From Candidatus Saccharimonadota bacterium (GTDB taxonomy: Bacteria; Patescibacteriota; Saccharimonadia; Saccharimonadales; Saccharimonadaceae): a stretch of DNA of 64,000 nucleotides. Under the pieces are notes generated by a model, which worked only from the letters and a program-made list of their open reading frames with translations, did not search any database and was not told the DNA's origin. The stretch lies in contig OX335598.1 of assembly GCA_946893605.1 (NCBI GenBank), positions 310,001 to 374,000 on the forward strand, written 5' to 3'. Of this stretch, positions 15,079-46,456 are shown in pieces (the first letter of the stretch is position 1; each line of letters begins with the position of its first letter). A program made the translations under genes and the position numbers.

Positions 15079-15091
15079 TCTCCTCCTAGTA

Positions 15092-15158
15092 TTGACTTTT
15101 TTGCGCAAGTGTGGCATAAATTAATACAGACTTTTGTTGACAATCCCGTCAACGAAAG
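15092..15158 (+). promoter_or_regulatory. P1: recurrent promoter plus 5' hairpin
   Basis: TTGACT (15092-15097), a 17-bp spacer ending GCGCAAGTGTGG, and CATAAA (15115-15120). An 11-bp hairpin at the RNA 5' end follows (15131-15141 with 15148-15158, loop AATCCC). Copies of this module occur at 15675, 42205, 42764 and, on the minus strand, at 46361. Confidence 0.8.
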
Positions 15159-15191
15159 TAGTCCTTATACAACTCGAGAGAGAGTCATCTC

Positions 15192-15645: not shown

Positions 15646-15674
15646 TTGGTTATAAAATTATTTTATATATCCTA

Positions 15675-15738
15675 TTGACTTTTTGATGTAGATGTTGTAA
15701 AATGAACACAGTCTTTGTTGACAATCCCGTCAACAAAG
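15675..15738 (+). promoter_or_regulatory. P2: recurrent promoter plus 5' hairpin
   Basis: TTGACT (15675-15680), 17 bp, TAAAAT (15698-15703), then a perfect 10-bp hairpin CTTTGTTGAC/GTCAACAAAG (15713-15722 with 15729-15738) with loop AATCCC, matching P1. The spacer differs from P1, P4 and P5. Confidence 0.8.
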
Positions 15739-15765
15739 AAGGTCCTTCAGATAGAAAGGGAAATC

Positions 15766-16194
15766 ATGGTTAATAATACCGATGCCAAATTCAGGGTTGC
15801 GTCGCTGATCTTTAGTATGAGCGCGGTATTCGTACTCGCGCTAAACGCGACTGTCGGAGCGGTAATTATCTCCATTGCACTAGCAGCGGCAGCACAGGTG
15901 ACTTCCGCCATCCTTGTTTGGATTTGTTTCAACAACAAACCCACAACAGCAGCTCTATTGATGGCTATTGTGTTGATCACCCCGGCGATGTTGATTTCAA
16001 GACTCTTTTACGTTGTCAATACATTGATTGCAAGGAACGTGCTCGTGACAGCACTGAGTGATCCCCTTGACTGGATAGAGACGACTGGAATCCTGGTATA
16101 TGTGGTGCTGCTGTGCTTATTCCCGGTGATCTTTGCCGTAACTGCACCGCGACCACCCACGCGCGACAATGATAGCGACGACGAGGAGGACTAA
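15766..16194 (+). CDS. Small four-helix membrane protein, cassette 2
   Basis: 142 residues from ATG 15766 behind AGAAAGGGAAATC. Hydrophobic segments are at about residues 8-28, 30-52, 57-78 and 108-128. The tail is acidic (PTRDNDSDDEED). Function unknown. An upstream in-frame extension exists (from about 15715) but corresponds to the conserved RNA hairpin, and in cassette 1 the same stretch is out of frame with its gene, so it is not coding. Paralogue of the preceding gene by layout and tail. Confidence 0.75.
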   Translation: MVNNTDAKFRVASLIFSMSAVFVLALNATVGAVIISIALAAAAQVTSAILVWICFNNKPTTAALLMAIVLITPAMLISRLFYVVNTLIARNVLVTALSDPLDWIETTGILVYVVLLCLFPVIFAVTAPRPPTRDNDSDDEED

Positions 16195-42204: not shown

Positions 42205-42420
42205 TTGACTTAATCACCATAGAATGGTATAAGTAATATTGGTTTTCGTTAATGAGTTGAGATTGCTCCTCACCCGAAAACGTTCATTGACAAGTAGCCG
42301 AAACACAAGGCGAGTTTTTATTTCTTCTAAGAACTTTAAAGAGATAAATCTCGTCTTGTGCATAAAGAATGCACATATATCACAGCGAGGGCGAGAAAAC
42401 ACCAGAGAGGCAAAGATATC
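42205..42420 (+). promoter_or_regulatory. P3: recurrent promoter with structured leader RNA
   Basis: TTGACT (42205-42210), 17 bp, TATAAG (42228-42233). The ~185-nt leader folds into three hairpins: GTTTTCG/CGAAAAC (42242-42248 with 42275-42281) with inner TGAG/CTCA; AAGGCGAG/CTCGTCTT (42307-42314 with 42350-42357); GTGCAT/ATGCAC (42358-42363 with 42369-42374) with loop AAAGA. The same three are found in P4 with changed bases that keep the pairing. Confidence 0.7.
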
Positions 42421-42647
42421 ATGAGTGAGATATCGTCAAATCGAGCCTGGAAGCGTACCTAGAACGCGCAATCGCGTCTGAGGAAGGAAGGCTTCTTGCC
42501 CTTAGTTACGCATTCGAAGATCTACAAACAATCAGTATGGTGATCGATCCCGATGTCAGAGAACAGTTATCTCAGCTAGGCAAGAACGCCAACAAGCTGA
42601 CACAGCTGATCGAAGATGTTTTAAAATATACAGAAGGAGACGACTGA
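42421..42647 (+). CDS. Small acidic helical protein behind P3, one-base frameshift
   Basis: 75 residues when one A is restored in the AAA run near 42438-42440 (227 nt, one short of 76 codons). It begins MSEISS, continues SLEAYLERAIASEEGRLLAL and VREQLSQLGKNANKLTQLIE, and ends TEGDD. It is predicted to be alpha-helical and soluble. No family recognised. AGAGAGGCAAAGATATC precedes the ATG, similar to the spacing in P4. The conserved leader and the hairpin right after the stop support a real gene. Confidence 0.6.
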
Positions 42648-42659
42648 CGGTGCAGGATC

Positions 42660-42713
42660 GGGATATATGATGAGTGTAATTCATTCTCTTTATGGCTGCT
42701 TGTCATATATCCC
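42660..42713 (+). terminator. Long hairpin after the P3 gene
   Basis: GGGATATATGA (42660-42670) pairs perfectly with TCATATATCCC (42703-42713) around a 32-nt loop, 13 bp after the stop. The T-run is poor (CATTTTGG further on), so it may protect the 3' end rather than terminate. Confidence 0.6.
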
Positions 42714-42763
42714 CTGAAATCATTTTGGAATAGTCTCATTCGAGGCTATTTTTATGTATTCTA

Positions 42764-42979
42764 TTGACTTTTTTACGCAAGTGTGGTATAAATGAAGGTA
42801 GCTTTCATTGATGAGTTGAGTAAATCCTCGTCCGAAAGTGAACTTTGACAGGCAATCGAACACAAGATGAGTTTTTATTTCTTTCTTAAGAATCATTGAG
42901 AGAAATGAAATCTCATCTTGTATTGTAAAGAACACAATACGTTGCACCCACGCAGATGAGAGAACAGAAAGATAGCACA
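42764..42979 (+). promoter_or_regulatory. P4: recurrent promoter with structured leader RNA
   Basis: TTGACT (42764-42769), 17 bp ending ACGCAAGTGTGG, TATAAA (42787-42792). Leader hairpins: CTTTC/GAAAG enclosing GATGAG/CTCGTC (42810-42815 with 42827-42832); AAGATGAG/CTCATCTT (42864-42871 with 42912-42919); GTATTGT/ACAATAC (42920-42926 with 42934-42940) with loop AAAGAAC. Confidence 0.7.
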
Positions 42980-43414
42980 ATGTTTATCGATGTCTCTGAC
43001 GATCTTTCCGCTACGACGAAAGACCTGAGTTCGAAATGGCACACCGCCATGGAGATTATCTGCAAGGACGAGTATATCCCCGTCCTTCAAGTAAGGCGAT
43101 TCGTCCAAATGATTCGCGACACGTGTCAACGAGTGCAAGACCTCCAGGTCTATGCGAACATGTGTCTCGCGCAAGCCCCAGCCATCGTTGTAGGCGTCAA
43201 CATCTACAACGATGCTGTACGCGTCTCTTCAGCCCTAGAGGAGCTGAAAATCTTCGTTGACAAGCACGTCGCCACCATGACGGACGAAGACCAGTTCAAG
43301 AGTATCTTGAGCGAGATTGACGATACTCTTCTGTGCTTGATGTACGCAGGTGAATCCATGCAGCGAGAATACAGCCGCGACGAGGCTGTACTCAGCGATC
43401 CCTGGATTGACTGA
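42980..43414 (+). CDS. Soluble helical protein of unknown function behind P4
   Basis: 144 residues from ATG 42980 (MFIDVSDDLSATTKDLSSKW). An in-frame ATG at 42956 exists, but the distance from the purine-rich stretch to ATG in the P3 gene favours 42980. It is acidic and mostly helical (LQVRRFVQMIRDTCQRVQDL, SALEELKIFVDKHVATMTDE) with no motif I recognise. It ends DPWID. A 14-bp hairpin follows the stop. Confidence 0.65.
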   Translation: MFIDVSDDLSATTKDLSSKWHTAMEIICKDEYIPVLQVRRFVQMIRDTCQRVQDLQVYANMCLAQAPAIVVGVNIYNDAVRVSSALEELKIFVDKHVATMTDEDQFKSILSEIDDTLLCLMYAGESMQREYSRDEAVLSDPWID

Positions 43415-43422
43415 CAGTATAT

Positions 43423-43472
43423 AGTCTACACGACAGGTGATTGTTCTTTTACGATTGCCTGTCATGTAGACT
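43423..43472 (+). terminator. Long hairpin after the P4 gene
   Basis: AGTCTACA-C-GACAGG (43423-43437) pairs with CCTGTC-A-TGTAGACT (43458-43472), 14 pairs with one mismatch, 8 bp after the stop; the same position as the hairpin after the P3 gene. Confidence 0.65.
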
Positions 43473-43484
43473 CTGAATTTATAA

Positions 43485-43516
43485 CATTAAAAATCACCCT
43501 AACTACGGGTGATTTT
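43485..43516. terminator. Terminator of tRNA-Leu(CAG)
   Basis: AAAATCACCC/GGGTGATTTT hairpin with a 7-nt loop, T5 on the minus side. The sequence from here to the tRNA end repeats, inverted, the 3' flank of the tRNA-Leu at 45364. Confidence 0.8.
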
Positions 43517-46282: not shown

Positions 46283-46309
46283 CGTTCGTATAGTCTCCTT
46301 GTTTACTCA

Positions 46310-46361
46310 GCTCGTCAACGAAAGCTACTTTCATTTATACCATACTCGCGTAAAAAGTCAA
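46310..46361 (-). promoter_or_regulatory. P5: recurrent promoter, minus strand
   Basis: TTGACT (46356-46361), 16 bp ending ACGCGAGTATGG, TATAAA (46334-46339), then GCTTTCGTTGACGAG at the RNA 5' end, matching P4 base for base at most positions. Unlike P3 and P4, the leader is short and reaches an SD (AAGGAG) directly. Confidence 0.8.
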
Positions 46362-46456
46362 TTAGAATATACTCGGCATAACTTGTCAGGACTTGAAACC
46401 TGAACTATAATTAGCTCACATCACGAGTTCGTTAAATAAAACGACAGATGTAATTA

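Follow-up and report, generated by a model that had tools for sequence, protein, structure and literature searches.

The DNA analysed here, a stretch of 64,000 nt that we call the window, is part of the 702-kb, single-contig genome of a Candidatus Saccharimonadota bacterium (contig OX335598.1, positions 310001-374000) and has a GC content of ~45%. It carries two consecutive units, P3 and P4, each with a promoter, a structured 5′ leader, a reading frame, a hairpin in the 3′ untranslated region (3′ UTR) and a terminator-like hairpin (Table 1), with transcription starts inferred from the -10 boxes. These features are best explained by an expression cassette of Saccharibacteria that is present here in two copies, P3 and P4, and whose mRNA carries structure at its 5′ as well as its 3′ end. 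Below, G000 denotes the present genome, G133 its sister genome and L-numbers homologous loci; the loci are related by descent, and statistics over loci ignore this kinship.

Table 1 Features of the P3 and P4 cassettes (window coordinates; R2, covariance model described in the text)
Feature	Position	Strand	Basis or remark
P3 promoter, TTGACT-17-TATAAG	42205-42233	+	Direct reading; shared with the P4 promoter and related loci; -35 TTGACT 42205-42210, -10 TATAAG 42228-42233
P3 structured 5′ leader	~42238-42420	+	Compensatory changes; R2 match
P3 hairpin 1	42242-42281	+	Alignments A1/A2; two mismatches
P3 conserved linker TTGACAAGTAGCC, putative 5′ half of end-to-end helix	42287-42299	+	Pairs with 42694-42705
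P3 hairpin 2 (long)	42305-42359	+	Folding, alignment, R2
P3 hairpin 3, GTGCAT/ATGCAC	42358-42374	+	Shares 2 nt with the base of hairpin 2
P3 start codon and short open frame, 13 aa	42421-42462	+	
P3 3′ UTR hairpin	42660-42713	+	Linker-complementary site 42694-42705 in 3′ arm
P3 intrinsic-terminator-like hairpin and T run	42728-42753	+	
P4 promoter, TTGACT-17-TATAAA	42764-42792	+	-35 TTGACT 42764-42769, -10 TATAAA 42787-42792
P4 structured 5′ leader	~42797-42979	+	R2 match; fold z-score -3.65
P4 hairpin 1	42801-42839	+	Alignments
P4 conserved linker TTGACAGGCAATCG, putative 5′ half of end-to-end helix	42845-42858	+	Perfect complement at 43452-43464
P4 hairpin 2 (long)	42862-42921	+	Folding, alignment, R2
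P4 hairpin 3, GTATTGT/ACAATAC	42920-42940	+	
P4 GATGAG beside ribosome-binding site	42955-42960	+	Can pair with hairpin 2 3′ arm CTCATC
P4 ORF (open reading frame), 144 aa, orphan	42980-43414	+	GC3 (GC content at third codon positions) 65%; low-confidence all-helical model
P4 3′ UTR hairpin	43424-43471	+	Linker-complementary site 43452-43464 in 3′ arm
P4 terminator-like hairpin, without hammerhead	43490-43516	+	

The original prediction, made from the letters of the sequence, was that two leaders at this locus share a fold of three hairpins with compensatory base changes, implying selection on RNA shape. Both leaders lie where they had been placed, and the quoted stems are exact, including the third (GTGCAT/ATGCAC versus GTATTGT/ACAATAC); the middle stem reads AAGGCGAG/CTCGTCTT in P3 versus AAGATGAG/CTCATCTT in P4. 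The folding z-score of the P3 leader was -2.0 compared with -3.65 for P4, hairpin 2 was long and very stable, and P3 hairpin 1 was missing from the minimum-energy fold of the leader alone. Among seven full leaders from this genome and G133, 96.3% of the pair cells were standard pairs, against 42-54% in slid controls, and nine pairs in hairpins 1-3 carried changes on both sides. The extension to 27 leaders gave 95.9% standard pairs (40-52% when slid), double changes in 36 of 38 pairs and a covariation score of 0.61, compared with 0.11-0.17 for slid controls. Because the structure was used in fitting this larger alignment, it is the comparison with the slid control that should be trusted; despite the fitting and the common ancestry, the difference from the controls leaves little doubt, at the level of compared sequences, that the leaders covary, and it strongly supports the predicted selection on shape.

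Covariance models were built from the seven leaders (R1) and from the 27 leaders (R2). Within the family, R1 detected the leader in 28 of 394 genomes; in the class, R2 detected it in 48 of 393 Saccharimonadia genomes, spread over 36 of 152 genera and with up to seven copies per genome; among named organisms, the relatives were chiefly Candidatus Saccharibacteria metagenome-assembled genomes (MAGs). R2 matched P3 at 42238-42376 (93.5 bits, E 1e-20) and P4 at 42797-42942 (109.2 bits, E 2e-24), both being within its training set. Searching relatives with such a model had been proposed together with the original prediction, and it returned further homologues with compensatory changes; judged by sequence and covariation, the P3 and P4 leaders are members of a widespread Saccharibacteria RNA family. 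Shorter 5′ structures were also seen elsewhere in the window. At 15090-15190 and 15673-15766, tandem small membrane protein genes (126 and 142 aa, with similar acidic C-termini) have a P3/P4-type promoter and a short 5′ hairpin resembling hairpin 1; linker and hairpin 2 are lacking. On the minus strand (46292-46369), a third promoter, its hairpin 1 truncated, lies upstream of a broken gene that we take to be HAM1/RdgB-like; the G133 version of this gene is intact and is followed by a truncated folE-like stretch.

Hairpins 1 and 2 are separated by a conserved linker, UUGACAAGCAGAC, and a second conserved structure lies 3′ of the ORFs, its 3′ arm, typically TGTCTGCTTGTCA, being the reverse complement of the linker TGACAAGCAGACA. 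This partner site lies in the 3′ UTR, ~0.4-1 kb downstream, and in most loci matches the linker of the same locus, for example GACAGGCAATCG with CGATTGCCTGTC in P4, GACAAACAGCTAC with GTAGCTGTTTGTC in L056 and GACAAGCAGGAGAAT with ATTCTCCTGCTTGTC in L072. Over 37 loci the summed duplex energy was -788.6 for own pairs, a value reached by 0 of 20000 permutations, and -592.4 (standard deviation (sd) 15.9) for permuted pairs; tested against the 3′ UTRs of the other loci, the P3 and P4 linkers both ranked their own site first of 37. Fifteen loci found later by R2 gave the same picture (-256.4 versus -202.7, sd 9.8, 0/20000), with a good 3′ site wanting in four of them. The 24 distinct duplexes contained, over 11 positions, 243 Watson-Crick pairs, 10 G-U pairs and 11 mismatches; several positions showed double, compensatory changes, and some of the deviations were G-U pairs. 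When whole transcripts were folded, this closing helix was part of the minimum-energy structure in seven of ten cases (P3, L056, L067, L071, L072, L081 and L083), with a probability of ~0.97-0.99. The leader structure of the original prediction holds as the 5′ half of this arrangement; the partner sites at 42694-42705 (P3) and 43452-43464 (P4, beyond the region then described) had not been remarked on.

These results bear on the suggestion that the leader is a riboswitch or thermosensor. A cis-regulatory sensor, or a leader bound by a protein, would be in keeping with several hairpins linked by a conserved single strand and with the alternative pairing at the ribosome-binding site described below, but the downstream ORFs are unrelated and lack a metabolic theme, P3 and P4 match no known riboswitch family or aptamer, and pairing with the 3′ UTR of the same mRNA already explains the linker, which is the best-conserved single-stranded element. 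For these reasons the riboswitch and thermosensor claims are not supported, and we consider a sensor or protein-binding leader highly improbable.

Outside this genus, roughly every second cassette carries an intact type III hammerhead core directly after the 3′ hairpin, such as TTCGC-UC^CACAAAT...ATTTGTG-CUGAUGA-GUCC...GGAC-GAAA-GCGAA. A strict pattern of CUGANGA...GAAA core, UH cleavage site and three stems is present in about half of the cassettes. Applied to both strands of 1.34 Mb, the strict search found hammerheads 3′ of cassettes on the leader strand and two extra sites (L038, L120). The core and the three stems are those of the type III hammerhead family RF00008; matches of related cassettes to this model (27-40.5 bits, E down to 1e-5) all remained below its gathering threshold of 48.5, and the cassette hammerheads differ in their position at the 3′ end of protein-coding transcripts. 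The present genome has one ribozyme cassette, L055 (G000:202092), with one stem III mismatch, and terminator-like hairpins replace the hammerhead in P3, in P4 and in the cassette that precedes cysS. At L107, L134 and L120, two hammerheads occur within one contig stretch, and further cassettes missed by the leader model are therefore probably located nearby. Hairpin 1 of P4 contains GATGAG...CGAAA, which resembles a hammerhead; this candidate was rejected because the core is not kept in other leaders.

In some homologues the 3′ half of the leader also matches RAGATH-10 (RF03147), an Rfam motif of unknown function. L069, L072 and L074 exceeded its gathering threshold of 41.2 bits, with matches that cover the 3′ arm of hairpin 2 and the sequence up to the ribosome-binding site. 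Neither P3 nor P4 gave a match at gathering or at E<1, and a phylum-wide search returned one weak match in 380 genomes and none over the cut-off. The RAGATH-10 model represents only this 3′ half; hairpin 1, the linker and the 3′ UTR partner have no place in it, nor does the 5′ arm of hairpin 2. In the model, GAUGAGG next to the ribosome-binding site is the partner of the hairpin 2 3′ arm (CCUCAUC), and the same pairing is possible in P4 (CTCATC/GATGAG) and P3 (CTCGTC, 42350-42355, with GGCGAG, 42390-42395). Over 35 loci, many of them weak, permutations reached the value of the own pairing in 22 of 20000 cases; as the own pairing beats the permutations, hairpin 2 and the helix at the ribosome-binding site are plausible alternative structures.

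As far as comparative sequence evidence goes, the cassettes have a sigma70-type promoter, a covarying leader, a linker that covaries with a 3′ site and, in about half of the loci, a hammerhead core; from these parts we infer protection of the message, gating of its translation and a site of action. The transcript would fold shut on itself through the 5′-3′ helix, and the ribozyme, or the terminator in P3 and P4, would fix a defined 3′ end inside a hairpin, giving a long-lived mRNA with protected ends. Translation could be gated twice: the 3′ arm of hairpin 2 may bind either the 5′ arm of that hairpin or the stretch next to the ribosome-binding site, and the 3′ site may pair locally or with the leader. 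On balance we incline, with slightly more confidence than doubt, to the reading that the cassette mRNAs are end-paired, end-protected messages of accessory genes, similar in logic to hok and aapA.

A simpler possibility is a pure stability element, in which hairpins and the 5′-3′ helix only block nucleases and raise expression constitutively, without switching. The long, very stable hairpin 2, one element common to unrelated cargo and the short-leader loci at window positions 15090, 15673 and 46302, with their similar promoter and 5′ hairpin, fit this explanation, as does the chemistry of hammerhead cleavage, which leaves a blocked 3′ end. However, a constitutive shield needs neither a conserved linker sequence nor a 3′ site with two alternative partners nor pairing beside the ribosome-binding site, so that we regard it as a possible but distinctly less probable account.

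Several points weigh against the gated, end-paired message that we prefer. Its support comes from sequence comparison and folding, and the permutation counts do not represent independent events, because the loci share ancestry. In P4, L080 and L090 a local 3′ hairpin is preferred by 1.5-6.4 kcal/mol; the closing helix of P4 is absent from its minimum-energy fold and can be enforced only at a cost of 4.7 kcal/mol, since the local hairpin wins. Since some loci fold with the closing helix and others with the local 3′ hairpin, two near-balanced folding states are predicted. The ribozyme is missing from most cassettes of this genus, including P3 and P4 (the strict search found none in the window), and many relatives show little or no pairing at the ribosome-binding site. 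Because the linker is not the ribosome-binding site, unlike the situation in hok and aapA, any effect of end pairing would be indirect; moreover, no toxin-like product was seen among the cassette cargo examined, and no antisense RNA was identified from the sequence.

The cassette ORFs are mostly unrelated orphans. The tiny proteins of the original prediction do not apply to P4, with 144 aa; the P3 frame is short, and a frame homologous to the intact 76-aa protein of G133 runs on out of frame to 42647 (42421-42647), for which reason the P3 gene looks frameshifted relative to the G133 copy. The P4 protein had no match among phages, plasmids or viral contigs, and the idea that it came from a phage or plasmid was dropped. 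Elsewhere, L081 (614-1543, minus strand), in a Saccharibacterial genome, encodes a Tad4 Thoeris-inhibitor domain (PF25186, E 5e-23; GC3 93%), L074 matches phrog_26039 (E 8e-36) with 61% identity to a Variovorax phage protein, and L055 has a weak, CPBP-protease-like match under the cut-off. An HbpS-like family recurs in L083, L084, L089, L090 and L099, as indicated by alignment, model and Foldseek, and was not found in phages or viral contigs. The best explanation is that the cargo consists of accessory, partly phage-related genes, at least one of them for counter-defence (Tad4), which probably act on the host bacterium or inside it and not in core metabolism. At L075 and L123 (G131) a short ORF comes after the leader and precedes a further gene, presumably resembling an acyl-CoA dehydrogenase gene, which would be unusual for Saccharibacteria.

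GC3 of the cassette ORFs was 70.2%, compared with 50.4% in neighbouring ORFs, and was higher in 36 of 37 loci (Wilcoxon p 1.6e-8); within the window the contrast was smaller (P4 65% versus a mean of 45%), and the cassettes L140 (25%), L132 (39%) and L130 (47%) are not GC-rich. High-expression codon bias is not the cause, because ribosomal protein genes of the same genomes stay near 40-58. The raised GC3 could reflect genes recently acquired from high-GC phages or hosts, or selection for translation in a high-GC host. Cultivated Saccharibacteria live on Actinobacteria (PMC10633639), and their type IV secretion system (T4SS) is conjugation-like and essential, with an unknown role, Patescibacterial T4SS clusters being mostly without relaxase (PMC12102498, PMC11665869). 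This lifestyle and the T4SS, together with the GC3 shift that expression bias does not explain, would suit expression of the cassettes in the bacterial host from mRNA or DNA delivered by the epibiont, with host-fitting codons. A complete cassette with hammerhead (L099:6789-7501, minus strand, core CTGAAGA) lies on a 56.8-kb contig binned as Actinobacteria, in the neighbourhood of genes for an OLD-family nuclease, an arginine decarboxylase and a spermidine synthase, and this too would fit host expression, but it is a single MAG contig. We know of no RNA export, transfer from high-GC phages or hosts accounts equally well for GC3, and not all cassettes are GC-rich; we therefore judge host-directed expression unlikely. 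A bolder and equally doubtful version would make the cassettes RNA effectors, that is, end-paired, ribozyme-trimmed, translationally quiet mRNAs sent into the host, perhaps via the relaxase-less T4SS; translated there from host-like codons, they would serve to disarm defence and to remodel the host cell.

The genomic setting of the cassettes offers another view. In L067, L080, L083 and L090 the cassette promoter starts right after the 3′ end of a tRNA gene, and a same-strand tRNA gene lies within ~250 nt upstream in 8 of 48 loci. The orthologous cassette proteins of L011 and L045 (G000 and G133) have near-identical C-terminal halves and strongly diverged N-terminal parts, a mosaic pattern that suggests recombination. 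A genus-wide comparison for an empty site at the P3 locus met sequences too diverged to read. The complementary 5′ and 3′ sites might accordingly be DNA inverted repeats bounding a mobile gene cassette, their pairing in RNA being incidental; differing ORFs inside a conserved frame, positions behind tRNA genes, which are common integration sites, and the mosaic copies would agree with this. We find it very unlikely, however, as the repeats are flanked by promoter and hairpin 1 and, at the opposite end, by the hammerhead, all of which are nonetheless conserved with them, the hairpin covariation acts at the RNA level, G-U pairs occur among the deviations, and no recombinase was noticed, although none was specifically searched for.

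The end-paired message recalls the type I toxin mRNAs of hok/sok and aapA/IsoA, for which end-pairing mRNAs awaiting 3′ processing are established (PMC6733600, PMC4147584). Long-distance 5′-3′ pairing is shared, here on the evidence of comparative sequence and folding, and a stable full-length mRNA, alternative local hairpins and a role for 3′ processing can be likened (PMC6733600, PMC4147584). In contrast to hok and aapA, the cargo is larger and diverse, the pairing involves the linker and not the ribosome-binding site, the 3′ end is a predicted ribozyme or terminator product instead of one made by trimming, and P4 encodes a 144-aa orphan and not a small membrane toxin, so the cassette family is not a member of the hok or aapA families. 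Obelisks are RNAs of ~1 kb that encode a single ORF, pair extensively within themselves and often carry a type III hammerhead (PMC13096302), all features that the cassettes share with them and with viroid-like RNAs; but the cassettes are encoded in chromosomal DNA and have a promoter, their hammerhead lies on the coding strand, and neither an Oblin nor any sign of replication or circles was noticed. A full-text search over part of the literature returned no paper joining hammerhead ribozymes and Saccharibacteria; the pieces are of known kinds, and their combination in this lineage appears to be undescribed.

If this reading is true, RAGATH-10, so far an orphan motif, would gain a context and a testable function, and minimal-genome bacteria would have a family of protein-coding mRNAs with covarying end pairing and ribozyme-made 3′ ends. 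The leader would furthermore provide a sequence tag for accessory, partly counter-defence genes of Saccharibacteria.
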